From a virus: a stretch of DNA of 28,383 bases. Where the stretch lies: positions 1-28,383 of the IMG/VR virus record IMGVR_UViG_3300007541_000141. One strand, given 5' to 3'. This document shows, piece after piece, positions 7,603-28,383 of this stretch; position 1 is the stretch's first letter; every line of letters begins with the position of its first letter. The notes beneath the pieces are model-generated. The model did no database searches and was not told where the DNA came from. It worked only from the letters and a program-made list of their open reading frames with translations. Both the position numbers and the translations under genes were made by a program.

Positions 7603-7808
7603 GTCGTAAACGTCACATCGCTAAAACGCTTACATGGAGAGTACTAGCAACAACAGATACTTTTATCATCGCATGGTTGATTACAGGTCAGGTTGATTGG
7701 GCCGCGGGTATCGCTAGTATAGAAGTAGCTACAAAGATGGTATTGTACTACTGGCACGAACGGTTATGGTACAATCACATCAAATATGGAGTAAACAAAG
7801 ATGTATAA
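7587..7808 (+). CDS. DUF2061 membrane protein
   Basis: A 73-residue product starting MVEKVSRKRHIAKTLTWRVL. The R-H-I-x-K-T-L-T-W-R start, a TDTFIIAWLITGQ hydrophobic segment, then GIASIEVATKMVLYYWHERLWY match the DUF2061 family of small membrane proteins (Pfam family recalled, not searched). Two short hydrophobic helices are visible at about residues 19-35 and 40-56. In bacteria this family is found near or fused to sulfate-assimilation genes, which fits the APS-kinase-like gene that it overlaps by 16 bases. It overlaps the following nucleotidyltransferase gene by eight bases, so all three are probably translated together. The exact role is unknown. Confidence 0.8.
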   Translation: MVEKVSRKRHIAKTLTWRVLATTDTFIIAWLITGQVDWAAGIASIEVATKMVLYYWHERLWYNHIKYGVNKDV

Positions 7809-8220
7809 TTCTACTTTCGATTTTAAGAAGCCTACGGTACAAATGTTAGGTCGCTGGCAACCTTGGCATCCAGGTCATACTGCTTTATTCAAAAAAGCCT
7901 TGACATTGACCGGACAAGTTGTTATAATGGTACGTGAAGTATATGGTTTTGACGGAGACGCAGGCGCGGGTCGTACGAATGATCAGTCTGATAATCCTTT
8001 CGGCGAGATCACAGTTATAGATAATATTAAATCTGCATTAGAAGCCGAGGGTTATTACGATGGAGAGCATTATATTATTATGTGTGTTCCTAATATCGTT
8101 GATATTTCTTATGGGCGTGGCGTGGGTTATACTTTTACTGAACATGATCTTGGAGAGGATGTACACGCTATTAGCGCGACTAAGATCCGTGAAAAAATGA
8201 GAGAAGAAGGAAAATTATGA
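7801..8220 (+). CDS. HxGH-type nucleotidyltransferase
   Basis: A 139-residue product. The sequence GRWQPWHPGHTALFKKAL (residues 17-34) contains the HxGH nucleotide-binding signature (His23, His26), and ISATKIR (124-130) is the ISxTxxR-type second motif, both diagnostic of the cytidylyltransferase/NMN-adenylyltransferase superfamily. These enzymes transfer a nucleotide from CTP or ATP to a phosphorylated acceptor. The acceptor cannot be read from sequence: NMN, a sugar or lipid phosphate, or (by neighbourhood) a sulfur-related substrate are possible. It overlaps both neighbours (eight bases upstream, four downstream). A perfect sigma70 promoter lies inside the coding sequence at 7900-7928. Confidence 0.78.
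   Translation: MYNSTFDFKKPTVQMLGRWQPWHPGHTALFKKALTLTGQVVIMVREVYGFDGDAGAGRTNDQSDNPFGEITVIDNIKSALEAEGYYDGEHYIIMCVPNIVDISYGRGVGYTFTEHDLGEDVHAISATKIREKMREEGKL
7900..7928 (+). promoter_or_regulatory. Intragenic consensus sigma70 promoter
   Basis: TTGACA at 7900-7905 and TATAAT at 7923-7928, 17-base spacer, with TGT before the -10. Both hexamers are perfect although the sequence also encodes LTLTGQVVIMV of the nucleotidyltransferase. Transcription from about 7935 would serve peptide deformylase, gp47 and gp46 independently of gp55. Confidence 0.65.
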
Positions 8221-15517: not shown

Positions 15518-15738
15518 TTACAATTTATGGAAAACCAAATTGCGGATATTGCAATATGGCAAAAACACTATGTGAACAAAAGGGTGCAGAGTATTCTTAC
15601 CTCAGCTTAGGTGATGACTATGACGCAGACGAATTTGCAGAAAAATTTCCAACAGCAAGGACGTTTCCTCAGATCGTCGTTGATGATCAAGCTGTAGGAG
15701 GTTATAACGAACTAAGGGATTATTTCGACAATGTCTAA
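15514..15738 (+). CDS. grx: Glutaredoxin
   Basis: A 74-residue product with the complete glutaredoxin fold signature: active site CGYC (residues 10-13), TFPQI with the conserved cis-proline (about 50-54), and GGYNEL (62-67) for glutathione contact. It reduces disulfides and, in T4-like phages (NrdC), serves as electron donor to ribonucleotide reductase; no nrd genes are in this window. The start overlaps the previous stop (ATGA) and its end overlaps the next gene by eight bases. It is sandwiched between two MazG-like genes, placing it in a nucleotide-metabolism unit driven by the promoter at 15217. Confidence 0.93.
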   Translation: MITIYGKPNCGYCNMAKTLCEQKGAEYSYLSLGDDYDADEFAEKFPTARTFPQIVVDDQAVGGYNELRDYFDNV

Positions 15739-16126
15739 AGATTGGGTAGATGATATTAATGCTATGCATGCTCATTATGGTATGCATGAAAGATTTGAAA
15801 AATTTACTGACGATGAAAAGCGTTTGTTTCTTGAATTCCGCGCAAACTTTTTACAAGAAGAGCTTGACGAGTTAAAAGCAAACATGGACAACCCTGAAGA
15901 GGTTGTAGATGCACTGATTGACCTCTGTGTTGTTGCTATTGGTACACTTGACACTTATGGTATTGATGCTCACAAGGCATGGAACGAAGTTCTAAAAGCT
16001 AATATGAACAAACAAGTTGGAGTTAAAGAAGGTCGTCCGAATCCACTAGGGTTGCCTGACCTTATGAAACCAGAAGGTTGGACTCCTCCTTCTCACGAAG
16101 GTAATCATGGTAGATTAACTAAATAA
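15731..16126 (+). CDS. MazG/HisE-like pyrophosphohydrolase, second copy
   Basis: A 131-residue product. FLEFRANFLQEELDELKANM (residues about 33-52) holds the EELDEL metal-binding helix, and PEEVVDALIDLCVVAIGTLDTYG supplies the E-x-x-D motif of all-alpha NTP pyrophosphohydrolases, resembling phosphoribosyl-ATP pyrophosphohydrolase-like phage proteins. The C-terminus (GRPNPLGLPDLMKPEGWTPP) is a Pro-rich tail common in phage versions. It is distinct from the smaller MazG-like protein two genes upstream: different motif spacing and length, so probably a different substrate. The gene overlaps glutaredoxin by eight bases; an AAGGAG site after its stop serves the following gene. Confidence 0.8.
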   Translation: MSKDWVDDINAMHAHYGMHERFEKFTDDEKRLFLEFRANFLQEELDELKANMDNPEEVVDALIDLCVVAIGTLDTYGIDAHKAWNEVLKANMNKQVGVKEGRPNPLGLPDLMKPEGWTPPSHEGNHGRLTK

Positions 16127-16834: not shown

Positions 16835-16861
16835 TTGAAAATTGAAATCGGAGTAGAAACG

Positions 16862-18214
16862 ATGGAATATAGTGTCAAAGTAATGTCGGCACAAGAAATT
16901 GTCGACCTTCTCAATACTGGAAAATTAAATCCAGATCCTATCGGCCAACGGCCACCTGTATCATCAGGCGTAAAAAAATCTGTAGCAATCATTAAAGGTC
17001 TCATGTCGGGATTCGGTTGTGGTATGCTCACTATTCGTGACATCCGCAACGACAAAGAATCTCAAAAGATCTATGGTTGTGATTATCTTGTTATCGATGG
17101 CGGACACCGCTGTCGAGCACTTAAAGCATACTATTCTGGAAAGATTCTAGTTAACGGTGAGAAATACGTTGATTCAGATTTTGACTTGAATGATGTACAA
17201 ATCCCCGTTGATGTGCGTGTGTGCTCAAGCAAAGAAGCTTCCGTTCTGTTCAAGAACATTAATACTACCACACCCACTAACTTCATGGAAATGGTTATGT
17301 CCGATGAAGAATCTCTAGTGTGTGAGTATATCCGCAAACAAACTTCTTATGTGCGTGAGTACGGTAACGAACCACATTCAATCTTTGAAAAACTAGTCAA
17401 ACCAGACGGTAAGCTTATTGTAAGTAACTGGGTAGACCAACAGCCTAATCCTCGTAGGCGCTGGGACGAGTTTGTAGCAATCGCTATTATTCGTTCGGTG
17501 GGAAAAGGTTTAGTCGACGCCGGTCAAACAGAAATTGAGAAACTTTGTGATGATGAAGTCTTAATTAGTTCATCAGTTAAGACTATGGTAACTGACTTTT
17601 TAGACGCTACATTACGACTACGACAATTTCGAAAGTTTCAGTTAAACGACGCCATCTTCTCGGCATTTTCTGTTTACTACTTTGGTCTTGTAGGCCAACA
17701 CGGTAAATTTAAGATCAGTGACGAGGAAGCTTTCTTTAAGAACTTCATGAGTACATATACGAGGTTGACTGGAAAGCAGGACAAGAGTCTAGAAAAAGAA
17801 ACGCTTGAGTACAAGGGTAACGTATTCTTCATCAAAGAATTCGTCCGCAAATACCGTCGACACTCTGCAGATAGTACTGCGCAAAAAATTGTGTTCGACC
17901 TATTTACAAAGCACTCAAACTGTGATACAATAGGCATTACAATTTTGGATAATACTCGTTCACTAAGTAAGACTGATCGAGAAGAAGCGCTGGCTGCTCA
18001 AGGGTATGTCTGCGCTATCGACGGTTTACCACTTAATCTCGATGAAGCGGTATTCGGTCATGATACTCCTTGGTCTAAAGGTGGTAAGAGTGAGTTAGCG
18101 AATGGTGCTATGATTCGAGCAGAACACAATCGAGACATGGGTACCGTAACTCTTGACGAGTATCGTTTAATTTTAAGTATGAGGAAACAAAATGAGCAAG
18201 CAGCAACAGCCTGA
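16862..18214 (+). CDS. DUF262/ParB-like protein with C-terminal HNH nuclease domain
   Basis: A 450-residue product. I use ATG 16862 (GGAG eight bases upstream) rather than TTG 16835. The N-terminal 160 residues have IGQRPPVSSG (about 27-36) and VIDGGHRCRALKAYYSG (about 77-93), like the QR and IDGQQR motifs of DUF262/ParB-type proteins, which in GmrSD and related enzymes couple NTP hydrolysis to DNA cleavage. The C-terminal 70 residues have YVCAIDGLPLN, FGHDTPWSKGG (His400, Asp401) and MIRAEHNRDMG (His422, Asn423), an HNH-type beta-beta-alpha metal site. The middle is helical. It is the first gene behind the structured leader. The domain pair is that of modification-dependent restriction systems; here it may act on host or competing phage DNA, or be a homing-type enzyme. 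Confidence 0.65.
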   Translation: MEYSVKVMSAQEIVDLLNTGKLNPDPIGQRPPVSSGVKKSVAIIKGLMSGFGCGMLTIRDIRNDKESQKIYGCDYLVIDGGHRCRALKAYYSGKILVNGEKYVDSDFDLNDVQIPVDVRVCSSKEASVLFKNINTTTPTNFMEMVMSDEESLVCEYIRKQTSYVREYGNEPHSIFEKLVKPDGKLIVSNWVDQQPNPRRRWDEFVAIAIIRSVGKGLVDAGQTEIEKLCDDEVLISSSVKTMVTDFLDATLRLRQFRKFQLNDAIFSAFSVYYFGLVGQHGKFKISDEEAFFKNFMSTYTRLTGKQDKSLEKETLEYKGNVFFIKEFVRKYRRHSADSTAQKIVFDLFTKHSNCDTIGITILDNTRSLSKTDREEALAAQGYVCAIDGLPLNLDEAVFGHDTPWSKGGKSELANGAMIRAEHNRDMGTVTLDEYRLILSMRKQNEQAATA

Positions 18215-18536
18215 GTCAGTCAACGTTCTTCAAGAATGTGTTGAACTACAATTAAAAAAGTCTCGTGATTATCAGAATCCGAACTCAACCGTAAAGCAAG
18301 CTGACTACTACCCTAATGGTATCGTAACTATTCATGACATCATGCACGCTAAAATGCTTCGCATGAAATCAGTTATGGAAGCTATGCAGTCAGCTGACTA
18401 TGATCCGAACTTTGAATCACTTGAAGATTCGGCTAAAGATCTCATCAACTACGCAAGCTTCTTTGTTTCGTATTGCCGCGGTGGTATCAGTGGTCAAGAT
18501 CCGAACAAAAATGTTTTCAACAGGAATAAAAAATGA
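18192..18536 (+). CDS. Nmad1 (DUF1599)-like nucleotide-modification-associated protein
   Basis: A 114-residue helical product. The segment KKSRDYQNPNSTVKQADYYP, then IHDIMHAKMLRMKSVMEA and LEDSAKDLINYASFFVSYC resembles the K-x-x-D-Y-x-x-x and L-E-D-x-x-x-D-x-x-N-Y-A pattern of the small domain named nucleotide modification associated domain 1 (Nmad1, DUF1599), which occurs beside thymidylate-synthase-like enzymes in phages making modified bases. The assignment is from memory. Here it lies about 460 bases upstream of a dCMP hydroxymethylase gene, fitting that association. It overlaps the HNH gene by 23 bases, with GAGGAA inside that gene as its ribosome site. Confidence 0.55.
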   Translation: MSKQQQPESVNVLQECVELQLKKSRDYQNPNSTVKQADYYPNGIVTIHDIMHAKMLRMKSVMEAMQSADYDPNFESLEDSAKDLINYASFFVSYCRGGISGQDPNKNVFNRNKK

Positions 18537-18730
18537 AACCGAATCCTTTTCTGTTTCTTACTTTAGTGTTAGCAGTATTATTCTTTTTTCCTTTAGCGAC
18601 AATTTGGTCTCTAAACACTTTGTTCGAAACTGGAATTGCTTACACTTTTAAAACTTGGTTAGCAGCAGTATTTTTACAAATGGTAACCTTCGGTGGTGTT
18701 AGTAGCACCATTCGACAAACATCTAAATAA
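18533..18730 (+). CDS. Small two-helix membrane protein
   Basis: A 65-residue product with two hydrophobic segments (about residues 5-26 and 38-58) separated by LNTLFETGIAYTFKTW, starting MKPNPFLFLTLVLAVLFFF. This short protein type, with NPF at the start and IWSLNTLF in the loop, is known to me from marine T4-like phages without an assigned role. Topology is probably both ends on the same side of the inner membrane. The start overlaps the Nmad1-like stop (ATGA). It is not obviously a holin: no lysozyme gene is nearby and it lies in a DNA-metabolism operon. Confidence 0.7.
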   Translation: MKPNPFLFLTLVLAVLFFFPLATIWSLNTLFETGIAYTFKTWLAAVFLQMVTFGGVSSTIRQTSK

Positions 18731-18745
18731 TGGAGATTATATAAA

Positions 18746-19000
18746 ATGGCAAACGTGATTATCCCCTCTTCTGAAGAAGACCGTAAGCGTATTCGTGACG
18801 CTATGGAAGAAATTAGCAACTCGTATACTCGAGTCGAAGCTGAGCGTGACTTCGTAAAAGAAGCAATTAACAACCTAGCCGAAGACGTCGATGTTCCTAA
18901 GAACATTCTTCGTAAAATGGCTCGTATCTATCATAAGCAAAACATGGCCGCAGTAGTATACGAAGTGGAAGATATTGAGGCTCTGTTGGAGTCAATCTAA
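18746..19000 (+). CDS. dsbA: DsbA-like double-stranded DNA-binding late-transcription protein
   Basis: An 84-residue helical product (T4 DsbA is about 89). DRKRIRDAMEEISNSYTRVE followed by AERDFVKEAINNLAED and the C-terminal NILRKMARIYHKQNMAAVVYEVEDIEALLE matches the T4 protein, whose C-terminal part reads in similar order with A-L-Y-H-K-D-N. T4 DsbA binds double-stranded DNA, including late-promoter DNA, and modestly stimulates late transcription. The gene sits 15 bases after the membrane protein gene and one base overlaps the dCMP hydroxymethylase start. Early position in the same transcript as the hydroxymethylase is noted but not explained. Confidence 0.72.
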   Translation: MANVIIPSSEEDRKRIRDAMEEISNSYTRVEAERDFVKEAINNLAEDVDVPKNILRKMARIYHKQNMAAVVYEVEDIEALLESI

Positions 19001-19680
19001 TGAATAATGTAAAAGGCATCCGACGAAAGATCTTAGATCGTTTTCTCGACGAAGATTTTGTCATTGATCGAACTGGTGCCAAAACAATTGAAATTATCGG
19101 TGAGTCTTTTGTTGCTGACGAAGATTGGGTTATTCGTAAAGCAAATAAAGAATACATCGAGCGAGAACTACAGTGGTATGAATCACAGTCTTTGTTCGTT
19201 GATGATATTCCTGGCGAGACTCCACAGATCTGGAAAGACATCGCTGACCGTGAAGGTAAGATTAATTCTAACTATGGTTGGTGTATCTTCTCAAAAGAAA
19301 ATGGTTTGCAATACGAGAACGTAAAAGCAGAACTGACTGCTAATCCGAATTCTCGTCGAGCGACTATGATCTACAACCGCCCTACCATGCATACTGATTT
19401 CTGTAAAAACGGTATGAATGACTTTATGTGTACTTATGCAAACACCTTCATGATTCGTGACGGTAAGTTAATCTCTCACTATATCATGCGTTCGAATGAT
19501 GCAGTGTTTGGGTTTAACAATGACGTTGCTTGGGCTAAATATGTTCAGGCTCGACTCGCTAAAGAACTTGAAGTCGAGGTCGGTGATCTTATCTGGACCG
19601 CTTCGAACTTTCACGTGTATGAACGTCACTTTAAGTTTATTGAGAAATTGATCGATGAAATGGGACAAAAGATTTATTAA
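19000..19680 (+). CDS. 42: Deoxycytidylate 5-hydroxymethyltransferase (gp42)
   Basis: A 226-residue product (T4 gp42 is 246) with near-identical blocks: VIDRTGAKTIEIIGESFVAD, LFVDDIPGETPQIW, INSNYGW, SRRATMIY and MNDFMCTYANTF. Cys144 is the catalytic nucleophile (T4 Cys148) and RSND (164-167) binds phosphate. Asp175 in FGFNNDVAW corresponds to T4 Asp179, the residue that makes the enzyme use dCMP instead of dUMP (thymidylate synthase has Asn). It converts dCMP and methylene-tetrahydrofolate to 5-hydroxymethyl-dCMP, the precursor of hmC-DNA that resists restriction. The C-terminus is shorter than in T4. Its 3' end overlaps dCMP deaminase by 26 bases. The phage therefore very probably contains modified cytosine. 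Confidence 0.93.
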   Translation: MNNVKGIRRKILDRFLDEDFVIDRTGAKTIEIIGESFVADEDWVIRKANKEYIERELQWYESQSLFVDDIPGETPQIWKDIADREGKINSNYGWCIFSKENGLQYENVKAELTANPNSRRATMIYNRPTMHTDFCKNGMNDFMCTYANTFMIRDGKLISHYIMRSNDAVFGFNNDVAWAKYVQARLAKELEVEVGDLIWTASNFHVYERHFKFIEKLIDEMGQKIY

Positions 19681-20113
19681 TCTCGCTCGAGAAATTTCGA
19701 CTTGGAGTAAAGATCCAAGTACGAAAATTGGGGCGGTTATCGTAAATGATGACCGTCGCATTCTTGCGACCGGCTACAACGGCTTTCCTCGTGGGATAAG
19801 CGACAATGACTGGCGGTATGAAGATCGAGAAGAAAAGTACAAGTATGTAGTTCATGCTGAAATGAATGCGATCTACAACGCGACATTCAATGGTATCTCT
19901 TTGAATGATTCGACACTCTATGTTTGGGGTTTACCTGTATGTAGCGAGTGTGCTAAAGGTGTTATTCAAGTGGGTATTAAAAAGATTGTTATGCCTAAGC
20001 TTGATTTCCCTGAACGCTGGGTTGACTCGTTTCGAAAGTCTCGAGAACTTTTCTTAGAAGCCGGTATTGACTGGTATTTTTTAGAAGTTGACGAAGAAGA
20101 CGAAGACAGTTGA
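19655..20113 (+). CDS. cd: dCMP deaminase
   Basis: A 152-residue product starting MKWDKRFINLAREISTWSKD. The zinc site is complete: HAEMNAI (His67, Glu69) and PVCSEC (Cys96, Cys99). The N-terminal sequence with DPSTKIGAVIVN matches the dCMP deaminase family (T4 Cd, 193 residues), rather than cytidine deaminase. It converts dCMP to dUMP for dTTP synthesis, drawing on the same dCMP pool as hydroxymethylase; no thymidylate synthase or dUTPase lies in this window. ATG 19655 lies inside the gp42 frame with an overlap of 26 bases. Its C-terminus is acidic (EVDEEDEDS), and its TGA is embedded in the next promoter's -35. Confidence 0.93.
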   Translation: MKWDKRFINLAREISTWSKDPSTKIGAVIVNDDRRILATGYNGFPRGISDNDWRYEDREEKYKYVVHAEMNAIYNATFNGISLNDSTLYVWGLPVCSECAKGVIQVGIKKIVMPKLDFPERWVDSFRKSRELFLEAGIDWYFLEVDEEDEDS

Positions 20114-20138
20114 CAATAAATAGATTCTTTGATATAAT
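20110..20138 (+). promoter_or_regulatory. Consensus sigma70 promoter for the DNA-modification operon
   Basis: TTGACA (20110-20115) and TATAAT (20133-20138), 17-base spacer, both perfect, with TGA before the -10 (extended -10). The dCMP deaminase TGA (20111-20113) is inside the -35. The next ATG is only nine bases after the -10 (20148), predicting a leader of about three bases. AATAAATA inside the spacer also resembles a late promoter box. Confidence 0.88.
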
Positions 20139-20147
20139 GGTAAGATT

Positions 20148-21368
20148 ATGAAAAAGATTGTAGTGATAGACAACTTAACTGAAACTTTCAAAGGATCTAT
20201 AGTTCGATCAGGTCTGCAGAAAAGTTCAAAACTCGATGCCCGTGCTTTCGCTAAGATGGGCTACAACACTCACTTCATTTATTGTGGTGAGTGCAAAGAC
20301 GATTATAACTATACACATCACGTAGTTAACGAGCTCGGTTCTAAAGATCGAGCGATGGCTGAAGGCAAGAATCCTTCTCGAGTTTCTCGTTACTACATCA
20401 AAGCATATCTTGATTCAGTTAAAGATGTTCTTCAAGACGCTGACTATATTATCGCTCACTGTCATAGTGTTTCAATGATTACTCTAGTCAATAGTCTAGT
20501 TAAGAACAAACGCATCATGTTTGTCATTCATGACGTGATTGATCTCATGTGGTGTTATGGAACGAGTGATGTTATTCGTCGTATGCGCGCCACGGATCGC
20601 AACATGGTATACGTTGCTACGAACTCGAAATACTCGGTTCAGCGCATGACTGACATTCACTTGCGAGCTGTTGCTGCAAAATATCCAGAAGCTCCTATGC
20701 CAGGCGAAGAAGCTTTCGATGGTTATGTCAAACACTTCGTTTGGACTGATGAAGTCGTAACAGAAGACGATATTAAAAATGTTGAGAAAAAATCTGCTAT
20801 CATCGGTCGCTATGAGACATCTAAGTTTCACCATAAAGTTTATGGGTACAAGAATCCAGACAACGTAATCGTTCACTATGGTATTAAAGATCCTCGTCGA
20901 GATAAGACCGGTAAGTACTATGAGAAGCTTACTAAGACTGCTAACGCTTATGCCGAGAATCTTTCTGACGACGATTTGTTTAAAGCTATTAAGAGCTCAC
21001 AGTCAATTATTCTTCCGTGCCATCACGAGGGATTCGGTTATACTGCTTTCGAAGCAGGCATCTACGGAGTGTGTCCAGTAATCTTCCAACGAGAACTCGA
21101 ACACTTAGGTGTTTGGGCTCATGCAACATCCGAGTATCTTACTCGAGCGAATGTTAAGCACTTTGTCGCCGACTTCAACAATCCCGATGACATATATAAA
21201 GCTATAGACGAGAGTATAAAGATCAGCATCGAAGATCGTTTTGAAATATCTCGTAACCTTTTAAATTATTTTAGCGTTGAGAACTACGTTAACGAGCGAA
21301 TCGAATTACTTGATTCTATGGAAGAGCGAGTCTCAACCCAAGTTGATCTTGAGGATTTTTTTGTATGA
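20148..21368 (+). CDS. GT-B glycosyltransferase, candidate hmC-DNA glycosyltransferase
   Basis: A 406-residue product, close to T4 alpha-glucosyltransferase (400). Two Rossmann halves are visible: an N-terminal half with SIVRSGLQKSSKLDARAFA and MGYNTHFIYCGECKD, and a C-terminal half with IIGRYETSKFHHK (Arg221) and LPCHHEGFGYTAFEAG (290-304), where the E-x-x-x-x-x-x-x-E donor-sugar motif sits, then CPVIF. Activity would move a sugar from a nucleotide-sugar, and context (gp42, dCMP deaminase, DNA-acting neighbours) suggests hydroxymethylcytosine in DNA as acceptor. The C-terminus VDLEDFFV resembles the polymerase tail TIEDFFS; T4 alpha-glucosyltransferase is reported to bind the gp45 clamp. A cell-wall or LPS glycosyltransferase remains possible. 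Confidence 0.72.
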   Translation: MKKIVVIDNLTETFKGSIVRSGLQKSSKLDARAFAKMGYNTHFIYCGECKDDYNYTHHVVNELGSKDRAMAEGKNPSRVSRYYIKAYLDSVKDVLQDADYIIAHCHSVSMITLVNSLVKNKRIMFVIHDVIDLMWCYGTSDVIRRMRATDRNMVYVATNSKYSVQRMTDIHLRAVAAKYPEAPMPGEEAFDGYVKHFVWTDEVVTEDDIKNVEKKSAIIGRYETSKFHHKVYGYKNPDNVIVHYGIKDPRRDKTGKYYEKLTKTANAYAENLSDDDLFKAIKSSQSIILPCHHEGFGYTAFEAGIYGVCPVIFQRELEHLGVWAHATSEYLTRANVKHFVADFNNPDDIYKAIDESIKISIEDRFEISRNLLNYFSVENYVNERIELLDSMEERVSTQVDLEDFFV

Positions 21369-22558
21369 TTAAACACGCATCTATCGTACCGCTGATCGGT
21401 GGTGAGACCATCGGCTCAGAACTCGCGTTTGGCGAGAAACCCACCTACATGATGTCGTACGAGGCCTTCGCAGCCAACGACGCTCACGCCCGTAATTACT
21501 ATAGCGGTACTCCATACTATGTTCTAGATAAGGGAGAGAAGCCCACAGAGAGTGTAGACGTAGTATCTTCTGTGTGTCCATGTGCAGGACTGTCTCAGCT
21601 ATCTCACGGATTCGGAGACGACAACCCTAACAACCAGTGGATGGAAATTACTGCTGAACATGTTCTTGGAACAGTAAAACCTAAAGTGTTCTGGGGTGAG
21701 AATGCGCCAGGCTTCGCAGGTAAAATCGGCGACACAGTTCGAAACAAACTCAAACAGATCGGAAAAGAAAACGGATATACTATGACTGTATATCGTACTC
21801 GATCTCTACTCCACGGTGCACCACAAATTCGTGAGCGTTCTTTCTACTTCTTCTGGAAAGATACTAAAACTCCTCTCTTAAGTTGGTACAATAAGCAATA
21901 TACTAAAATTGAAGATGTGATTCGAGGTGTAGCAGGCTCAAACAGCTTTACTGATCCTATCAATCCAAAAACTCCGAGTGTAGATGATCTCTATTATAAG
22001 TTCGTGTTAGAACACATTCACGGTGGTATTAGCCATAAAGAATTCTTTGAAATCGCTGAGCCACAAAGAGTAAGAGCACAAGACATGTTTTCATATATCG
22101 AACGTAGCGGATATGACTACAAGCAAGTCGGAGAATGGATGGAAGAACATGGGTACGAAAGAGAAGTTGAAAAGTGTTTACGAAAGTATGAGAAACTCAA
22201 AGCTGGTGGAAACATCATGCGACGCGGTACTATCATTCCTAAAGATTACATTGGCGCTTTCGTTGGTCATTATCCTACCTGTCTTACTCACCCTGATGAA
22301 GATCGTTATATTAACTATCGCGAAGCTATGGCAATCATGGGACTACCTAATGATTTTGAGCTCCTCAATCCGAAGAGAAGTGCAAACCATATTTGCCAAA
22401 ACGTTCCCGTGCAAACAGCTAGAGACATGGCGACGGAAGTAAAGAAATACCTAGAAGGTAAGTTACAAATGGTTGACGCTGACTATGTAGTACAGTACAA
22501 TCATACACAGAAATCAGAATACTTAGAAAAACACGACACGCTAGAAGCCTTTATCTAA
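21365..22558 (+). CDS. Cytosine-C5 DNA methyltransferase homologue
   Basis: A 397-residue product. Motifs of C5-cytosine methyltransferases in order: PLIGGETIGSELAFG (motif I-like, 9-23), SSVCPCAGLSQ (motif IV, Pro72-Cys73 nucleophile), WGENAPGFAG (motif VI, Glu112-Asn113), QIRERSF (motif VIII, 154-160), YREAMAIMGLP (motif IX-like, 318-328) and CQNVPVQTARDMATE (motif X, 344-358). A long insertion between motifs VIII and IX (about 165-290) carries an unrecognised target-recognition region. Motif IV has an unusual Cys pair and lacks the common Gln-Gly. In a phage making hmC the C5 carbon is normally occupied, so its job is unclear. The C-terminus DTLEAFI resembles the tails of the polymerase and upstream GT. 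Overlaps both neighbours. Confidence 0.78.
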   Translation: MIKHASIVPLIGGETIGSELAFGEKPTYMMSYEAFAANDAHARNYYSGTPYYVLDKGEKPTESVDVVSSVCPCAGLSQLSHGFGDDNPNNQWMEITAEHVLGTVKPKVFWGENAPGFAGKIGDTVRNKLKQIGKENGYTMTVYRTRSLLHGAPQIRERSFYFFWKDTKTPLLSWYNKQYTKIEDVIRGVAGSNSFTDPINPKTPSVDDLYYKFVLEHIHGGISHKEFFEIAEPQRVRAQDMFSYIERSGYDYKQVGEWMEEHGYEREVEKCLRKYEKLKAGGNIMRRGTIIPKDYIGAFVGHYPTCLTHPDEDRYINYREAMAIMGLPNDFELLNPKRSANHICQNVPVQTARDMATEVKKYLEGKLQMVDADYVVQYNHTQKSEYLEKHDTLEAFI

Positions 22559-23157
22559 TGAGTGATATTTTCGTCATTGATGACGTGATTTCAAAACCAG
22601 AACAAGATCGTATAGAAAAACTTATGTTTTCTAAAACTCTGTTCTGGACGTTCTTCGATGATGTAGCTTTGAGTGATCATGAAAATGAACTACTAGGAAT
22701 AAATAAAAAGACGCCGGCCGTAGGTTGTTATTTTAAGCAAGAAAATCCTCCTTACTTTTTTGGAAGAATGTACTTTCAAGTCGAAAACGTTGCGCGGCAA
22801 GCAGCAAAGAAGGCGGGCATCAAATTTGACAGTATAGTCGATGCTCGTTCTTTTCTAATGTTTCCCTTGCATGAAAACGTAAGAAAGGAGTACGACAATA
22901 TTCACGTCGATATGCTTGAAGATCATTGGGTTTGCTTATACTATGTAAATGATTCTGATGGAGACACGGTTCTCTTTAAACAAACTAAAGAAGATATGAA
23001 TAACGACTTTGAAGTTTTTAAGAACACTAAGTTCGAACCTCTAAAGCGAGTAACGCCGAAGAAAGGAAGAGCAGTAGTATTTAATGGAAATAGATATCAT
23101 AGTAGCACAGCACCGACTAACGGTGTTCGATGTATTTTAAATTTTGATTTGAGATAA
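22558..23157 (+). CDS. 2-oxoglutarate/Fe(II)-dependent dioxygenase
   Basis: A 199-residue product with the double-stranded beta-helix signature: HVD (His116, Asp118), YHSS (His181) and VRCILNFD (Arg191, which binds the 2-oxoglutarate carboxylate). The order and spacing (about 65 residues between HxD and the distal His, ten to Arg) and KGRAVVFNG fit the prolyl-hydroxylase-like branch. It would oxidise a C-H bond using O2 and 2-oxoglutarate. Such proteins are common in marine phages, and substrates are mostly unknown. Position directly after a C5-methyltransferase homologue (TAATG overlap) and between two glycosyltransferases suggests a modified base, but a protein target cannot be excluded. 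It uses AGA for arginine more than its neighbours. Confidence 0.82.
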   Translation: MSDIFVIDDVISKPEQDRIEKLMFSKTLFWTFFDDVALSDHENELLGINKKTPAVGCYFKQENPPYFFGRMYFQVENVARQAAKKAGIKFDSIVDARSFLMFPLHENVRKEYDNIHVDMLEDHWVCLYYVNDSDGDTVLFKQTKEDMNNDFEVFKNTKFEPLKRVTPKKGRAVVFNGNRYHSSTAPTNGVRCILNFDLR

Positions 23158-23161
23158 AAAT

Positions 23162-23794
23162 ATGAAAGATTTGATTTTTGATTTTGAAACACTGGGATCT
23201 GAACCTACTGATTGCGTAGTCATTGATTGCTCAGCTATGGTTTTCGATTGGGATAAAATGTTGTCTAACGATCCTTACACACTTAAGGACGTTGCATTAG
23301 CTAAAAAGTTTAAGCTCTCTGTTTCCGATCAAGTTAAAAACTATAACTATAAGATCGAAGACGATGTGCTAGAATTCTGGCAAAGGCAAGAAAAAGAAGT
23401 TCGCAGTCAAATTAAACCTCGTCCAGACGATCTTACCGTCGAAGAGTTCGTAAAACAATTTCACGACTTAGTCATAGATTCTGGCGTAAAGCATTGGTGG
23501 TCTCGATCGAACACCTTTGATCCTGTCATTCTAGTCAGACTATTCGACTCCCAAGGTAAGAAACAACACCTCTACGAGTATCTTAAGTTTTATCTCGTAC
23601 GCGACACTCGTACGTACATCGATGCTAAATTTAATTTTAGTAATAGTAAAAATGGCTTTTGCCCAGTAGAAGATACTGAAGGTTGGGAACGAGCCTTTAA
23701 AGCACATGACAGTTCTTTTGATATTCTAGCAGATGTCATGCGCTTACAAGCAATTGTTAGAGCAGAAAATGATTTGGAGCAAGTTAAATTATGA
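23162..23794 (+). CDS. dexA: DexA-like DEDDh 3'-5' exonuclease
   Basis: A 210-residue product (T4 DexA is 227). Exo motif I is IFDFETLG (Asp7, Glu9), motif II WWSRSNTFDPVIL (Asp120), motif III FKAHDSSFDILADVMRL (His182, Asp187), the DEDDh arrangement of proofreading-type exonucleases. The first motif and the AHDS-xx-D end align well with T4 DexA. T4 DexA is a non-essential single-strand 3' exonuclease. It begins four bases after the dioxygenase gene and overlaps the next gene (ATGA), so it belongs to the same operon as the putative modification enzymes. Whether that reflects function or simple packing is not known. Confidence 0.87.
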   Translation: MKDLIFDFETLGSEPTDCVVIDCSAMVFDWDKMLSNDPYTLKDVALAKKFKLSVSDQVKNYNYKIEDDVLEFWQRQEKEVRSQIKPRPDDLTVEEFVKQFHDLVIDSGVKHWWSRSNTFDPVILVRLFDSQGKKQHLYEYLKFYLVRDTRTYIDAKFNFSNSKNGFCPVEDTEGWERAFKAHDSSFDILADVMRLQAIVRAENDLEQVKL

Positions 23795-24651
23795 AAATTG
23801 AAATTCAAGTAGATGAACTAAGAAAGTATAAGCTTTTTGTGGGAACACCTATGTATGGTGGGATGTGTGCCGGGATGTACACCAAGTCTACTAATGATTT
23901 AAGTATGTTATGTGCAAATCATAGTGTCGGATTGCGTTATTACTTTCTATTCAATGAAAGTCTCATTCAGCGAGCTCGAAACTACATCGTTGATGAGTTT
24001 CTAAGATCTGAATGTACACATCTTCTATTCATCGACGCTGACATCGGCTTCAATCCTCGAGACGCCTTAGCTCTACTGGCTATTCAAGTATCTGAACCAA
24101 ACCGATATGACATTGTAACCGGACCTTATCCTAAGAAAACAATTGCTTGGGAGAAAGTAGCTCGCGCTGCTGCTGAAGGTTTTGCAGAAGAAAACCCCTT
24201 TACGCTAGAGCAATTCACTTCGGACTTTGTGTTTAATCCTGTTAAAGGTATGACACAGTTTAAGTTAGGTGAGCCTGTGGAAGTAAGAGAAGCCGGCACT
24301 GGTTTCATGCTGATCACACGAGAAGCTCTGCTAAAATATCGAGACGCTTATCCTGAACTTGCTTATAAACCAGACCACGTTCGAACAGATCAGTTCGATG
24401 GCTCTCGAGAAATCACCGCTTTCTTTGACTGCGCTATCGATCCTGAGTCAAAGCGGTATCTTTCAGAAGATTACTTCTTCTGCCATAAAGCTCGTGCCGC
24501 AGGACTTTCTGTCTGGATGTGTCCTTGGATGCAAATTAATCATGTTGGTTCTTATATCTTCAGGGGGAATATGGGAGCCATCGCTCAACTAGGAGTGACT
24601 GCTACAGCAGACAGAACATCTAGCAAGAAAACATATCAAAAAAACAGTTGA
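23791..24651 (+). CDS. GT-A family glycosyltransferase
   Basis: A 286-residue product. LFVGTPMYGG begins the fold; THLLFIDADIGF (about 76-87) contains the DxD metal-binding motif (Asp82, Asp84); YLSEDYFFCHKARAAG (223-238) has the E-D-Y catalytic-base motif of GT2-type enzymes; and NHVGS (His251) follows. This is a complete inverting GT-A enzyme. It could add a second sugar to a modified base, or act on surface polysaccharide. It overlaps dexA by four bases and ends the operon that begins with the GT-B enzyme, so two glycosyltransferases of different folds bracket the C5-methyltransferase and dioxygenase. The TGA lies within the next promoter's -35. Confidence 0.78.
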   Translation: MKIEIQVDELRKYKLFVGTPMYGGMCAGMYTKSTNDLSMLCANHSVGLRYYFLFNESLIQRARNYIVDEFLRSECTHLLFIDADIGFNPRDALALLAIQVSEPNRYDIVTGPYPKKTIAWEKVARAAAEGFAEENPFTLEQFTSDFVFNPVKGMTQFKLGEPVEVREAGTGFMLITREALLKYRDAYPELAYKPDHVRTDQFDGSREITAFFDCAIDPESKRYLSEDYFFCHKARAAGLSVWMCPWMQINHVGSYIFRGNMGAIAQLGVTATADRTSSKKTYQKNS

Positions 24652-24676
24652 CATTTTGACCAAACTAGTGTATAAT
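24648..24676 (+). promoter_or_regulatory. Consensus sigma70 promoter for the sliding clamp operon
   Basis: TTGACA (24648-24653) and TATAAT (24671-24676), 17-base spacer, both perfect, in the CAGTTGACATTT context. The upstream GT-A gene's TGA (24649-24651) is inside the -35. The predicted start near 24683 leaves a leader of about 28 bases with GGAG ahead of the gp45 ATG, a normal arrangement. Confidence 0.88.
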
Positions 24677-24710
24677 AATCAAGTAATTTTTCAAACGGAG
24701 AATCTATATT

Positions 24711-25376
24711 ATGAAATTTTCAAGTGAAACTTTGGCTGTTCTCAAAAGCTTTACCGCTATCAACAAATCTATTCAGATGAAACCTGGTAATGTTTTGAAA
24801 ACAATTACTCCAGAGAAAACTCTCATTGCTATCGCAGAAATCCCAGATGAAATTCCTTCAGAGGCTTGTGTCTACGATCTGTCGAGGTTCCTATCAATTT
24901 TGAGCCTTTATAATGATCCAGACGTCGAGTTCGGAGATAAATACTTTATTATCTCTGAAGGTAAGCGTAGAACCAAGTACGTCTATGCAGATGTATCAAT
25001 GATTCATACGCCGCCTGAAAAAGAGATAAATATTCCTTCAGAAGACGTTGTTGTGAATGTAACTCAAGGTGATCTATCTTCGGTTCTTAAAGCAGCAGGT
25101 GTTCTACAATTTTCAGAGATCGCATTTGTAGGCGATGGCGACAAATGTTATCTGAAAGCTATCGACAGTTCCAATGAAGGCGCAGATGACTTTGGCGTCG
25201 AAATTGGTGATACTGCCGATAAATTCAAGGTGATCATTAAAACTGATAACCTTAAACTAATGCCTTTAGACTATCAAGTAACTCTTTGTTCGAAGGGAAT
25301 CTCAGAGTTTAAAGGAAAAGGTGTCACATATTATGTGGCAATTGATTCAAAGTCGACTTATAATAAGGGTGAATAA
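24711..25376 (+). CDS. 45: gp45 sliding clamp
   Basis: A 221-residue product (T4 gp45 is 228). It starts MKFSSETLAVLKSFTAINKS and has the T4-clamp features QMKPGNVLKTI, EIPDEIPSEACVYDLSRFLSI, YFIISEGKRRTKYVYAD and a C-terminal LMPLDYQVTLCSKGISEFKG. Two repeated domains make a trimeric ring that encircles DNA and holds polymerase gp43; the same surface binds gp55 in late transcription and, in T4, alpha-glucosyltransferase. GGAG precedes the ATG. The gene is followed two bases later by a small conserved gene and then, beyond a terminator-like hairpin, by the clamp loader genes, so clamp may be made in excess over loader. Confidence 0.94.
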   Translation: MKFSSETLAVLKSFTAINKSIQMKPGNVLKTITPEKTLIAIAEIPDEIPSEACVYDLSRFLSILSLYNDPDVEFGDKYFIISEGKRRTKYVYADVSMIHTPPEKEINIPSEDVVVNVTQGDLSSVLKAAGVLQFSEIAFVGDGDKCYLKAIDSSNEGADDFGVEIGDTADKFKVIIKTDNLKLMPLDYQVTLCSKGISEFKGKGVTYYVAIDSKSTYNKGE

Positions 25377-25378
25377 TT

Positions 25379-25642
25379 ATGAATGGACAATTCCAACAAC
25401 AGCAAGAGCAAAAGGTTGTTATCAACCTAGGTGATCTTAGCACAGTACTTCAGTTGATCGATGTCGTATCAACTCGTGGCGGGTTCCAAGGCAATGAACT
25501 GGCCGGTGTCGGTTTGCTACGCAACAAGATCGAAGCCTTCCTACGTCAGAATGCTCCTCAGCAGGATCCTAACGTAGCAGGTGAAGAAGTAGATGTTGCT
25601 ATGCCAGCACAAGGTCCTTTGGCTGACAAAGTAATCGACTAA
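25379..25642 (+). CDS. Small conserved protein between gp45 and gp44
   Basis: An 87-residue product starting MNGQFQQQQEQKVV. The first ten residues are Gln-rich; the middle VINLGDLSTVLQLIDVVSTRGGFQGNEL and a helical VGLLRNKIEAFLRQNAP are followed by a Pro/Ala-rich acidic tail. A small protein of this composition at this position recurs in T4-like marine phages as I remember, but no function is known. It begins two bases after gp45 and is followed by a hairpin. Its expression probably tracks the clamp. No metal site or membrane segment. Confidence 0.65.
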   Translation: MNGQFQQQQEQKVVINLGDLSTVLQLIDVVSTRGGFQGNELAGVGLLRNKIEAFLRQNAPQQDPNVAGEEVDVAMPAQGPLADKVID

Positions 25643-25668
25643 GATTGCTTAGACCTTTCTCGAGAATA

Positions 25669-25710
25669 GGGGACTCAGCTAATGCTAGTCCCCGCCTTTC
25701 GAATTTTTAT
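25669..25710 (+). terminator. Terminator-like hairpin between clamp and loader genes
   Basis: GGGGACT (25669-25675) pairs with AGTCCCC (25687-25693); inside it AGC (25677-25679) can pair with GCT (25684-25686) around a TAAT loop, with one bulged C. A T-rich stretch (25703-25710, then TTTATATT) follows after a nine-base gap. The GC-rich stem stands out in this DNA. The gap before the T-run makes partial termination more likely than complete. No obvious promoter follows before gp44 at 25736, so some read-through is expected. Confidence 0.62.
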
Positions 25711-25735
25711 TTTATATTATGATTATGGTGAATAA

Positions 25736-26689
25736 ATGTCTATTGACGCAAAAGCAAATGAAGTGCTGTGGGTGGAAAAATACAGACCCCAGCGTATTGA
25801 AGATACAATCCTTCCTGAAAAACTAAAAAAGACTTTTCAAAAATTCGTTTCTGACGATTCAGTTCCTAATCTTCTTCTTACTGGTGGTCCAGGCGTAGGT
25901 AAGACTACTGTCGCTAAAGCCATGCTCGAAGAGATGGGCTGTGACTACATCGTTAAGAATGGTTCTCTTAATGTGAATATCGACACTCTTCGATATGAAA
26001 TCTCTACATATGCATCATCAGTTTCTCTTTCAGGTGGACGTAAATATGTAATCTTCGACGAGGCTGACTATCTTAACGCAGCTTCAGTCCAACCCGCTCT
26101 TCGTAACTTTATCGAAGAGTATTCAGCCAACTGCGGTTTTATCTTTACTTGTAATTTTAAAAATCGTATCATAGCACCTCTTCGTTCTCGTCTTTCAGAA
26201 GTCGATTTTACTATCGAAACGAAAGATCGTCCGGCTCTTGCTGCTTGCTTTTACAAGCGAGTACGAGCTATTCTTGACCAAGAACAAGTAGAGTATGACA
26301 ACAAGGTTGTCGCTAAAGTTATCGAGAAACACTTTCCCGACTTTCGTCGAGTACTAACCGAACTACAATCTTATGCAGCGTCCGGCAAGATTGATGAAGG
26401 TATCTTCGTTAATCTCAAGCAAGAATCTATTGACGCTCTGTTCGGACTTCTAAAAGCAAAAGACTTTACTAACATGCGTAAGTGGGTCGCTAATAACTCA
26501 GACCAAGATATGAACGAAATGTTTCGTCGAATCTATGACGCAGCTACGAGTAAGGTCGAGTTCCGTAGCCTTCCTGGTTTCATTGTTACGATGGCTGACT
26601 ATATGTACAAAGCAAACTTCGTTGCTGATCAAGAAATTAACATGGTCGCTTTTCTAACTGAAGTAATGATTGAATCGGAGTTCGCATGA
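25736..26689 (+). CDS. 44: gp44 clamp loader large subunit
   Basis: A 317-residue product (T4 gp44 is 319). AAA+ motifs: LWVEKYRPQRIEDTILP at the start, Walker A GGPGVGKTT (50-58), Walker B VIFDEADYL (106-113), sensor I region FIFTCNFKNRI, and LRSRLSEV (149-156) in place of the SRC motif of cellular loaders, consistent with phage loaders. Four gp44 with one gp62 open the gp45 ring and load it at primer-template junctions. The start is preceded by a weak ribosome site (GGTG) and a T-rich leader. Its TGA overlaps the next ATG. Confidence 0.95.
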   Translation: MSIDAKANEVLWVEKYRPQRIEDTILPEKLKKTFQKFVSDDSVPNLLLTGGPGVGKTTVAKAMLEEMGCDYIVKNGSLNVNIDTLRYEISTYASSVSLSGGRKYVIFDEADYLNAASVQPALRNFIEEYSANCGFIFTCNFKNRIIAPLRSRLSEVDFTIETKDRPALAACFYKRVRAILDQEQVEYDNKVVAKVIEKHFPDFRRVLTELQSYAASGKIDEGIFVNLKQESIDALFGLLKAKDFTNMRKWVANNSDQDMNEMFRRIYDAATSKVEFRSLPGFIVTMADYMYKANFVADQEINMVAFLTEVMIESEFA

Positions 26690-26868
26690 AGCCAACAGTT
26701 ACAGACGAAGTAGAACAAACTGAAGCACAGCGCCGTACTGAAATATGCAAAAGCTGCGAATTCTATAAACCTATGCTGAATCTGTGTGGTAAATGCAATT
26801 GCTTTATTCCTGCTAAGACGCGTCTCAAAGCGTCATTCGGCGGAAAGTGCCCGCTAGGAAAATGGTAA
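26686..26868 (+). CDS. Cysteine-rich small protein (DUF6171-like)
   Basis: A 60-residue product: CKSCEFYKPMLNLCGKCNCF is followed by IPAKTRLKASFGGKCPLGKW. Four to five cysteines in C-x-x-C ... C-x-x-C-x-C ... C spacing indicate a zinc-binding or redox knuckle. The pattern matches a short family I recall as DUF6171, present in T4-like marine phages; function unknown. It overlaps gp44 (ATGA) and the next gene by one base, so three genes between gp44 and gp62 are probably translated in sequence. Confidence 0.75.
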   Translation: MKPTVTDEVEQTEAQRRTEICKSCEFYKPMLNLCGKCNCFIPAKTRLKASFGGKCPLGKW

Positions 26869-27056
26869 TGTTTAAGAAGAAACTCGAGTGTTTCAATTGC
26901 TCTGTGCGTATAAAAGGAGGTGAAGAATATACAATCAAGCTCGAAACACTCGAAGGACCTCATGAAGTTAAGATGTGCGAAAAGTGTGCAGAAGATTTCG
27001 ATAAAATTATGATACAAGTAGAGGAGATCATACGTGAAAGAAATGAGCCCTTTTGA
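26868..27056 (+). CDS. Small zinc-ribbon protein
   Basis: A 62-residue product starting MFKKKLECFNCSVRIKGGEE. I use ATG 26868, which overlaps the previous TAA and has AGGA at 26856-26859, rather than the in-frame upstream start at 26847. CFNC (8-11) and CEKC (about 37-40) are positioned as a zinc ribbon around a beta-hairpin (EYTIKLETLEGPHEV). The C-terminal helix is acidic and overlaps gp62 by 23 bases, carrying gp62's ribosome site GAGGAG. Role unknown; a transcription or replication cofactor is possible from position only. Confidence 0.68.
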   Translation: MFKKKLECFNCSVRIKGGEEYTIKLETLEGPHEVKMCEKCAEDFDKIMIQVEEIIRERNEPF

Positions 27057-27426
27057 TTTTATGAACGCTGCTTCTTTCACGAAAGAAGATCTCATAAAAG
27101 ATAATCAGAATCCAGATGTAGCTGAAAAACAATACAATGCTTATATCGTAAATCGTGGTTTCACAAATTTTGATGACACGATTCTACACGCAAATGAAAT
27201 GAACATGAGACACGGACTATTTCCGGCTGCTCAATTTGATTACTATCGTGCGGTTCTTCGTAAGCGCAAGCGATTTTCAAAGTGGCCTAAAGCAGATAAG
27301 AATGCTGACCTAGATGCAATCCAGCAGGTATATCAGTGCAATCGTACAGTCGCTAAGATGTACCTTAACACGCTATCTAAAGAAGGCTTACAGATGGTTC
27401 ATGATCGTCTAGTAACAGGTGGTTAA
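27034..27426 (+). CDS. 62: gp62 clamp loader small subunit
   Basis: A 130-residue product, shorter than T4 gp62 (187) but of the short form usual in marine T4-like phages. SPFDFMNAASFTKEDLI, then YNAYIVNRGFTNFDDTILHANEMN and AAQFDYYRAVLRKRKRFSKW follow the order of T4 gp62 (K-F-M-V-E-N-A-L-S-Q-F..., then N-Y-L, R-x-K-R-Y-x-K-W). It joins gp44 as the clamp-loader's fifth subunit. I use GTG 27034, seven bases after GAGGAG (27021-27026), over ATG 27043, which would be 16 bases away. The C-terminal T4 extension is absent. Confidence 0.85.
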   Translation: MKEMSPFDFMNAASFTKEDLIKDNQNPDVAEKQYNAYIVNRGFTNFDDTILHANEMNMRHGLFPAAQFDYYRAVLRKRKRFSKWPKADKNADLDAIQQVYQCNRTVAKMYLNTLSKEGLQMVHDRLVTGG

Positions 27427-27437
27427 GCAATGAAAAA

Positions 27438-27445
27438 AATAAATA
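27438..27445 (+). promoter_or_regulatory. Candidate late promoter box before regA
   Basis: AATAAATA matches TATAAATA at seven of eight positions, in the 76-base gap between gp62 and regA. It might give a late or extra transcript for regA and the downstream methyltransferase. Base composition here is very AT-rich, so chance occurrence is likely enough that I keep confidence low. Confidence 0.25.
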
Positions 27446-27502
27446 GAATTATATGGTTTTTTGCCATTACCACTAATTACTATAACAAAGGTGATATGCA
27501 TC

Positions 27503-27907
27503 ATGGACAACGAAGATATTTTTAGAGGCGTCGGTGTAGAAGTTACTCTGCCGACACCCGATAGTTTTCTTAAGATTAAGGAAACACTTACCCGCATTGG
27601 TATCTCTTCTCGCAAAGATAAGAAACTCTTTCAATCGTGTCACATCCTTCATAAGAAAGGGCGTTACTCAATTCTGCATTTCAAGGAATTGTTTATCCTT
27701 GACGGAAAGCACAACACTTTCACAGATGAAGATAGAGCGCGCCGCAATACAATTGTGAATCTTCTTGAAGAGTGGGAGCTTATTAAGATCGTCGATCCTA
27801 ATAAAACTAAAGAGCCAGTAGCATCATTAAATCAAATCAAAATTATTTCTTATAAAGAAAAAGATGAGTGGGAGCTCACCGTAAAATATAATATCGGTAA
27901 AAAATAA
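27503..27907 (+). CDS. regA: RegA translational repressor
   Basis: A 134-residue product (T4 RegA is 122). TPDSFLKIKETLTRIGISS, KDKKLFQSCHILHKKGRYSI, LHFKELFILDG and DEDRARRNTIVNLLEEWELI correspond block for block to T4 RegA. RegA binds AU-rich sequences around start codons of early phage mRNAs, including its own and those of replication genes, and shuts down their translation. I use ATG 27503 (AAGGTGA nine bases upstream); this gives an extra 10-12 residues at the N-terminus relative to T4, MDNEDIFRGVG, that may be real or may indicate a later start. The gene follows gp62, as in T4. Confidence 0.9.
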   Translation: MDNEDIFRGVGVEVTLPTPDSFLKIKETLTRIGISSRKDKKLFQSCHILHKKGRYSILHFKELFILDGKHNTFTDEDRARRNTIVNLLEEWELIKIVDPNKTKEPVASLNQIKIISYKEKDEWELTVKYNIGKK

Positions 27908-27918
27908 GGATTAGTAAT

Positions 27919-28383
27919 ATGGTTAATGAAGGATTCACACCAAAAATTATTTTGAAAGCTTCTTTTAGCCTGTTGCCCGAGTTAAAAGGAAAAACTGTTC
28001 TAGAATTCGGAAATAAGAAAAATCATTATGGTGTTTGGCGAGACGATTATTTAAGAGCAGGTGTAAAAAGCTATCATTCTGTAGATCTTAACGGTCTAGA
28101 TGGCGCTATTCCTATTGATCTAAGAAGCGAATCAGCTGCTGAACAGATTAAAGAAGCTACAGGCCTTGATTCTTTCGACATAGTTACTAATTTTGGTATA
28201 AGCGAACACATCCCAGTTCAACGCACATTCTATAAGTGTGTACACAACATTTCTAAACCCGGAACTTTCGTAGTTCATTGGACTCCTCGAGCTCACTATT
28301 TTAAAGAACACGGATTTCACGGTTCGATCTGGCACTGCAACGATAATTTTTTCGAAGAACTAACTAAAGCTAATAACTACAAA
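27919..28383 (+). CDS. SAM-dependent methyltransferase, 3' end outside the window
   Basis: ATG 27919, with AAGGA (27905-27909) about nine bases upstream, opens a frame that continues to the last base, giving 155 residues so far. KGKTVLEFGNKKN (about 23-35) resembles the SAM-binding loop (the usual D-x-G-x-G-x-G is degenerate: EFGNKKN), YHSVDLNG supplies the acidic residue for ribose, and DSFDIVTNFGISEHI is the motif IV region, so the class I methyltransferase fold is likely. Substrate unknown. It is 11 bases after regA. Together with the minus-strand FkbM-type gene it is one of two methyltransferase-like accessory genes here. Confidence 0.65.
   Translation, partial: MVNEGFTPKIILKASFSLLPELKGKTVLEFGNKKNHYGVWRDDYLRAGVKSYHSVDLNGLDGAIPIDLRSESAAEQIKEATGLDSFDIVTNFGISEHIPVQRTFYKCVHNISKPGTFVVHWTPRAHYFKEHGFHGSIWHCNDNFFEELTKANNYK

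Follow-up and report, generated by a model that had tools for sequence, protein, structure and literature searches.

The stretch of DNA analysed here (the window) comprises the 28,383 bases of the virus record IMG/VR IMGVR_UViG_3300007541_000141, whose source is an aquatic T4-like phage. It carries T4-type replication genes and, in front of the sliding clamp gene gp45, a run of genes that includes a dCMP hydroxymethylase, a dCMP deaminase, a GT-B glycosyltransferase, a C5-cytosine methyltransferase homologue, a 2-oxoglutarate (2OG)-Fe(II) oxygenase, a DexA-like exonuclease and a GT-A glycosyltransferase (Table 1). A sequence-only reading had proposed that these genes form a cytosine hypermodification pathway spread over two adjacent operons, and all seven are present as judged by sequence or fold. 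The deaminase, the methyltransferase homologue and DexA pass their Pfam cut-offs. The Nmad1-like open reading frame (ORF) that had been counted in the first operon exists, but it lies outside the region assigned to the pathway and misses the Nmad1 (PF07659) family cut-off, with 15.2 bits against 25. The DsbA-like gene is situated between this ORF and the hydroxymethylase. Nmad1-like homologues adjoin the hydroxymethylase in many related contigs.

Table 1. Features of the putative modification locus and its surroundings in the window
Feature	Position	Strand	Evidence and remarks
PRA-PH/MazG-like pyrophosphohydrolase	15731..16126	+	PF01503 3.3e-8, above cut-off; upstream of hydroxymethylase in many related contigs
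Nmad1-like (DUF1599-like) small protein	18192..18536	+	PF07659 0.028, below cut-off; phrog_18404 1.9e-13
DsbA-like dsDNA-binding transcriptional regulator	18746..19000	+	PF11126 3e-6; phrog_639 7e-17
dCMP hydroxymethylase, T4 gp42 homologue	19000..19680	+	PDB 1b49 E=5.7e-72
dCMP deaminase	19655..20113	+	PF00383 1.5e-21; phrog_174 1.1e-46
Sigma-70-type promoter TTGACA-17-TATAAT	20110..20138	+	12/12 consensus bases
GT-B (GT4-like) glycosyltransferase in variable slot	20148..21368	+	AlphaFold fold and slot position
C5-cytosine methyltransferase homologue, motif I PLIGG	21365..22558	+	PF00145 5e-17
2OG-Fe(II) oxygenase	22558..23157	+	PF13640 1.7e-5, just below cut-off; phrog_274
DexA-like 3'-5' exonuclease	23162..23794	+	PF16473 2e-14; phrog_255 1.5e-31
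GT-A-fold glycosyltransferase, gp45 neighbourhood	23791..24651	+	phrog_1574 2.8e-57; AlphaFold fold
Second perfect promoter, 5' of sliding clamp gene	24648..24676	+	12/12 match

The hydroxymethylase is, by its sequence, a T4 gp42-type enzyme predicted to synthesize 5-hydroxymethyl-dCMP. Its top match in the PDB is the T4 dCMP hydroxymethylase, and in that alignment Cys144 and Asp175, the residues previously singled out for dCMP, superimpose on Cys148 and Asp179 of T4. The Asp that specifies dCMP is found in all 81 hydroxymethylase motif matches among the relatives. The promoter at 20110, which had been thought to drive the second gene set, is borne out by its perfect consensus match and recurs 5' of GT-B in several of the diverged contigs but is missing from others. 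Its -10 hexamer ends 9 bases 5' of the GT-B ATG, so the GT-B transcript is probably leaderless. The genes that follow are arranged in the order GT-B, methyltransferase homologue, 2OG oxygenase, DexA and GT-A. Start-stop overlaps of one to four bases had been described throughout this set. They are found at three junctions (GT-B/methyltransferase, 4 bases; methyltransferase/2OG, 1 base; DexA/GT-A, 4 bases), but the 2OG and DexA genes are separated by a 4-base gap.

Related loci were collected by searches with four queries (methyltransferase homologue, GT-B, GT-A and hydroxymethylase), and the window proteins were compared with them by tblastn. A constant frame is seen in well over 150 loci: hydroxymethylase, deaminase, a variable slot, methyltransferase homologue, (DexA), GT-A, gp45, gp44, gp62 and regA. 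The gene order suggested for checking against gp42 is conserved as far as the frame is concerned, but the occupant of the GT-B slot is exchanged and the 2OG gene is mostly absent. The hydroxymethylase lies upstream in 78 of the 78 methyltransferase loci having at least 6.5 kb of upstream DNA. Of the GT-A loci, 19 extend at least 8 kb upstream; 16 of these contain the hydroxymethylase, deaminase, Nmad1, DsbA and methyltransferase genes and three lack all five. These counts are not independent, because the loci are related to one another. Outside the main group, Pseudoalteromonas phage XG4 has both the methyltransferase homologue and the hydroxymethylase, the latter with one in-frame stop in the PF00303 scoring. 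Two further phages, S-TIM5 (a cyanophage) and Bacillus phage G, each have a methyltransferase homologue and a member of the thymidylate synthase family whose deciding residue is Asp. The Asp-bearing proteins of S-TIM5 (L014, annotated ThyA) and phage G (L251) are possible hydroxymethylases.

The GT-B homologues found sit in the slot 5' of the methyltransferase homologue. In sister contigs this slot is occupied by a T4-type DNA alpha-glucosyltransferase (AGT; family C4, PF11440 1.2e-72), whose profile matches the T4 structures 1xv5/1y8z at 4.9e-116, and in others by different glycosyltransferases together with sugar-nucleotide enzymes. Slots were typed by cassette content in 138 loci, a few of which overlap on one contig, and each of the 138 holds at least one listed cassette gene. 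The commonest filling is the T4-type enzyme alone (24 loci), followed by family C3 with UDP-galactopyranose mutase (21, of which nine also have an epimerase), the GT-B of the window (18), C1+C2+C0 (17), C3 alone (12), an AGT-like gene followed by C1+C2 (9), C12+C3 (8) and a cassette of inositol-phosphate synthase, HMUDK-like protein and C17 (7); the remaining types form smaller groups. The inositol-1-phosphate synthase cassette occurs in L072, L185, L188, L189, L231, L247 and L249, and phage Cr30 likewise codes for an inositol-1-phosphate synthase.

The slot families were identified as UDP-galactopyranose mutase (PF03275 9.5e-55), TET-associated glycosyltransferase (TAGT; C18, PF20691 6.7e-18), HMUDK_hel (C16, 6e-8), inositol-phosphate synthase (1.4e-23), NTP_transferase (C10, 1.5e-11) and CTP_transf_like (C2, 3.1e-16). 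C12 and C20 are glycosyltransferases, C0 has weak glycosyltransferase matches and C1 is phosphatase-plus-kinase-like. C3 and C17 matched no named domain family. The C4 cluster takes in distant AGT-like members of about 25% identity, and profile comparison gives the AGT and C0 families a common C-terminal region with 74.6% probability. Any sugar assigned to a cassette is a guess based on the genes it contains. A literature search found no paper linking UDP-galactopyranose mutase with phage 5-hydroxymethylcytosine (hmC), nor, among the papers available, one naming phage HY126.

Both glycosyltransferases were modelled because their Pfam matches are weak. The AlphaFold model of GT-B (mean pLDDT 70.6) has a two-domain GT-B/GT4 fold. 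It superimposes best on 5zes_A (Z 26.6, 3.1 Å, 329 residues), then on 9iqz (Z 21.5) and the T4 alpha-glucosyltransferase 1y8z_A (Z 20.2). Since the better matches use other acceptors, a DNA substrate cannot be read from the fold by itself. GT-B is not a PF11440 member: it has no match to this Pfam family and no PDB sequence match, and comparison of its profile with that of the slot AGTs gives a probability of 0.3%. The profile showed no similarity to the C0 and C3 families either. Neither a tblastn search with GT-B nor a megablast search with window positions 17000-28383 found a match in 50,697 phage records.

The methyltransferase homologue retains motifs IV (PC), VI (EN), VIII (QxRxR) and X (N), and Cys73, Glu112, Asn113, Gln154, Arg156, Arg158 and Asn346 are invariant in a 17-row alignment. 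Its match to PF00145 spans profile positions 59-324 only. The motif I sequence FxGxG is found before the catalytic Cys in none of the 133 family members, 130 of which have PL(I/V/A)GG. Bacterial C5-methyltransferase controls have FxGxG in 23 of 29 cases, a count that leans towards FxGxG because the pattern takes the best candidate per locus; in the remaining six, wherever this part of the sequence is displayed, LC(A/S)GAGG takes its place. Within the family the acid of motif II varies, and the Asp aligning near motif III is mostly retained. The altered motif I, the variable motif II acid and the late start of the Pfam match suggest a changed cofactor site, which does not imply loss of S-adenosylmethionine (SAM) use. 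A methyltransferase family with a PLIGG motif I is a new observation.

The tree of the methyltransferase homologue follows the type of slot glycosyltransferase better than do the trees of neighbouring genes. On a common set of 55 loci, the methyltransferase tree requires 15 changes of slot type, compared to 25 for the deaminase, 23 for the hydroxymethylase and 24 for GT-A, and shuffled labels require 31-32 on average. These are quick trees calculated without a mixture model, with six slot labels, one per locus. The greater length of the methyltransferase is not the cause of its low count, since each of four 150-column blocks, on a 63-locus set, gives 14 or 15 changes. The methyltransferase gene directly abuts the slot and joint transfer by adjacency is therefore part of the explanation. 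The deaminase borders the other edge of the slot, yet its tree does not follow the slot type.

The GT-A model (pLDDT 87.2) has a GT-A fold and superimposes on STIV A197 (2c0n; Z 17.4, 2.6 Å, 170 residues). Residues Asp82-x-Asp84 and Glu226-Asp227 are found in it, and Asp82 and Asp84, which form a DxD motif, are invariant in the alignment. Five annotated phages, DLP_6, Cr30, phiM12, OC and RHph_I1_18, have the gene at gp45 or close to it. The thymidylate synthases of Cr30, phiM12 and RHph_I1_18 are of the Asn type, and DLP_6 and OC gave no PF00303 match. GT-A is thus not tied to hmC; its assignment as an hmC-specific enzyme was dropped, and the disaccharide once proposed on account of two glycosyltransferases is unsupported. 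No thymidylate synthase was found in seven GT-A contigs lacking the hydroxymethylase, which are fragments. Loci L100-L103, L107-L109, L112 and L134 have GT-A without the hydroxymethylase, deaminase and methyltransferase homologue in the available stretch. Glycosyltransferase, epimerase-like and UDP-glucose-dehydrogenase-like ORFs take the place of those genes in L102, L107 and L134, and the L102 glycosyltransferase matches phrog_842 'beta-glucosyl-HMC-alpha-glucosyltransferase'.

Among 179 loci, the 2OG gene is found at this position in the window, L019 and L045 only, with one distant match elsewhere in L063. It had been read as a pathway step; on this distribution that role was dropped and the gene is best described as a sporadic insert. 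Its HxD...H...R residues were read by eye in the translation. Compared with Pfam to E 0.1, it matches PF13640, DUF6445 and PF13759 only and no TET/JBP model, nor was a TET/JBP domain found among the scanned window genes.

We consider it likely that this is a T4-type cytosine-hypermodification locus, in which hydroxymethylation is followed by glycosylation by GT-B and the methyltransferase homologue has a role on the same DNA. The presence of AGT-type enzymes in the slot of sister contigs and the 78/78 linkage to the hydroxymethylase make this the best reading, and they carry the case for cytosine modification beyond the neighbourhood argument on which it had stood. The pathway had nevertheless been drawn too wide in taking in the 2OG oxygenase and GT-A. 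From gene identities, order, linkage and folds, as given by sequence or models, we infer the reactions on DNA and the sugar transfer as follows. The gp42-like enzyme would make 5-hydroxymethyl-dCMP, to be incorporated instead of deoxycytidine (dC), while the dC pool would be drained by the dCMP deaminase and probably also by the MazG-like pyrophosphohydrolase, a candidate dCTP-removing enzyme. GT-B, as the slot equivalent of the T4 DNA alpha-glucosyltransferase, would then move a sugar from a nucleotide-sugar donor onto the hydroxymethyl group in DNA. The methyltransferase homologue, which is co-inherited with the glycosyltransferase type, may perform a further step on the same DNA. GT-A and DexA appear to be part of the frame of replication genes and may lie outside the pathway, and the 2OG oxygenase would be a sporadic addition.

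Several points weigh against this reading. The evidence is confined to sequence and models, and the contig is a 28 kb fragment. Adjacency accounts for part of the co-inheritance, and the loci share ancestry. By sequence, GT-B matches no DNA glycosyltransferase in profile comparisons or a PDB search, and its closest folds are those of GT4 enzymes whose acceptors are small molecules or glycans. A study of pelagimyophages assigned such phage glycosyltransferases to host surface sugars (PMC7029224). If that were the case here, the glycosyltransferases would modify host surface polysaccharide and lie beside the hydroxymethylase by chance, and the phage DNA would contain plain hmC or unmodified C. 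The ordinary GT4 folds, the occurrence of GT-A in phages without dCMP hydroxymethylase and the preference for this explanation in SAR11 myophages (PMC7029224) speak for it. However, the GT-B homologues found sit in the very slot that holds a T4-type DNA alpha-glucosyltransferase in sister contigs, and a surface role is improbable, though GT-A by itself may have one. A TET-like route, in which the methyltransferase homologue makes 5-methylcytosine (5mC), the 2OG enzyme converts this to hmC by oxidation and the glycosyltransferases then add sugars, appears highly improbable. The 2OG gene matches PF13640 rather than a TET/JBP model and is missing from nearly all methyltransferase loci. Moreover, 5mC oxidation would be unnecessary, because a dCMP hydroxymethylase accompanies the methyltransferase homologue. 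The head-to-tail arrangement of methyltransferase, 2OG and glycosyltransferase genes behind a single promoter, and the TAGT in the slot of some relatives, would fit such a route.

Another alternative is compatible with hydroxymethylation and GT-B glycosylation and concerns the methyltransferase gene alone. Its product may be an ordinary SAM-dependent C5-methyltransferase that methylates either the cytosines that remain or a short motif, in defence against host restriction for instance, and has no role in sugar attachment. The conserved catalytic Cys, Glu-Asn, QxRxR and motif X Asn, and the mostly retained Asp near motif III, agree with this, whereas the missing FxGxG, the variable motif II acid, the constant pairing with the hydroxymethylase and the co-inheritance with slot type do not; we give it an even chance. 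M.MpeI, a C5-methyltransferase, binds 5hmC DNA covalently, and loss of the hydroxymethyl group has been given as the reason why it can transfer a methyl group to 5hmC (PMC11347137). More speculatively, and in our view doubtful, a repurposed methyltransferase-like family might act on hmC without the usual SAM chemistry, by attack of the Cys on C6, and so remove, exchange or activate the 5-hydroxymethyl group. It would do so as the partner of exchangeable cassettes that put different decorations on phage DNA: glucose in some and, to go by their genes, possibly galactofuranose, a pentose or heptose, or inositol units in others.

Two further regions of the window may be mentioned. The first, at 7174-8220, has a small ORF resembling P-loop kinases (APS_kinase 1.7e-9) close to a CTP_transf_like ORF (0.0012, below cut-off), and homologues of the two adjoin the cassette in L021, L022 and L161, all with GT-B; they are a possible donor-supply pair. 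Upstream of the Nmad1-like ORF, the ORF at 16850-18214 has no Pfam match, a weak phrog_1583 match and a C-terminus that looks HNH-like by eye. Its homologues occur in a subset of the relatives.

Phage T4 replaces dC with hmC and glucosylates it. The window resembles the T4 gp42/AGT pathway in its homologous dCMP hydroxymethylase, in the AGT found in the same slot of sister contigs and in the gp45-gp44-gp62-regA genes that follow. It differs in that GT-B is GT4-like without detectable sequence similarity to AGT, the methyltransferase homologue is a constant member and the cassette is laid out contiguously beside gp45. RB69, with arabinosyl-hmC, and Shewanella phage Thanatos, with pentosyl-cytosine, combine a hydroxymethylase with phage-coded nucleotide-sugar supply, and the NTP-transferase and kinase slot genes of some relatives are similar to theirs by domain content; the slot of the window, in contrast, holds GT-B only and no nucleotide-sugar gene. 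Thanatos codes for a hydroxymethylase and for sugar supply, its cytosine bears a deoxypentose, and its modification-gene table lists no C5-methyltransferase (PMC12838424). Phage systems with TET, C5-methyltransferase and TAGT share with these loci the methyltransferase homologue and, in some relatives, TAGT, but hydroxymethylation here is predicted at the nucleotide level. In Bacillus phage G (gp301-gp306), a C5-methyltransferase of 25% identity and an annotated alpha-glucosyltransferase are five genes apart, and a second gene of the thymidylate synthase family has the Asp residue; motif I of the methyltransferase, however, is FGGSASIG and the gene order is different.

If this reading is correct, glycosylation of hmC, known mainly from enterobacterial relatives of T4, would be common in aquatic T4-like phages. 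It would be organised there as a cassette-exchange site, and several undescribed DNA sugars would be predicted. The question is then posed why phages that already incorporate hydroxymethylcytosine retain a C5-methyltransferase-like protein whose cofactor motif is altered, a question that is testable because M.MpeI reacts with hmC (PMC11347137).

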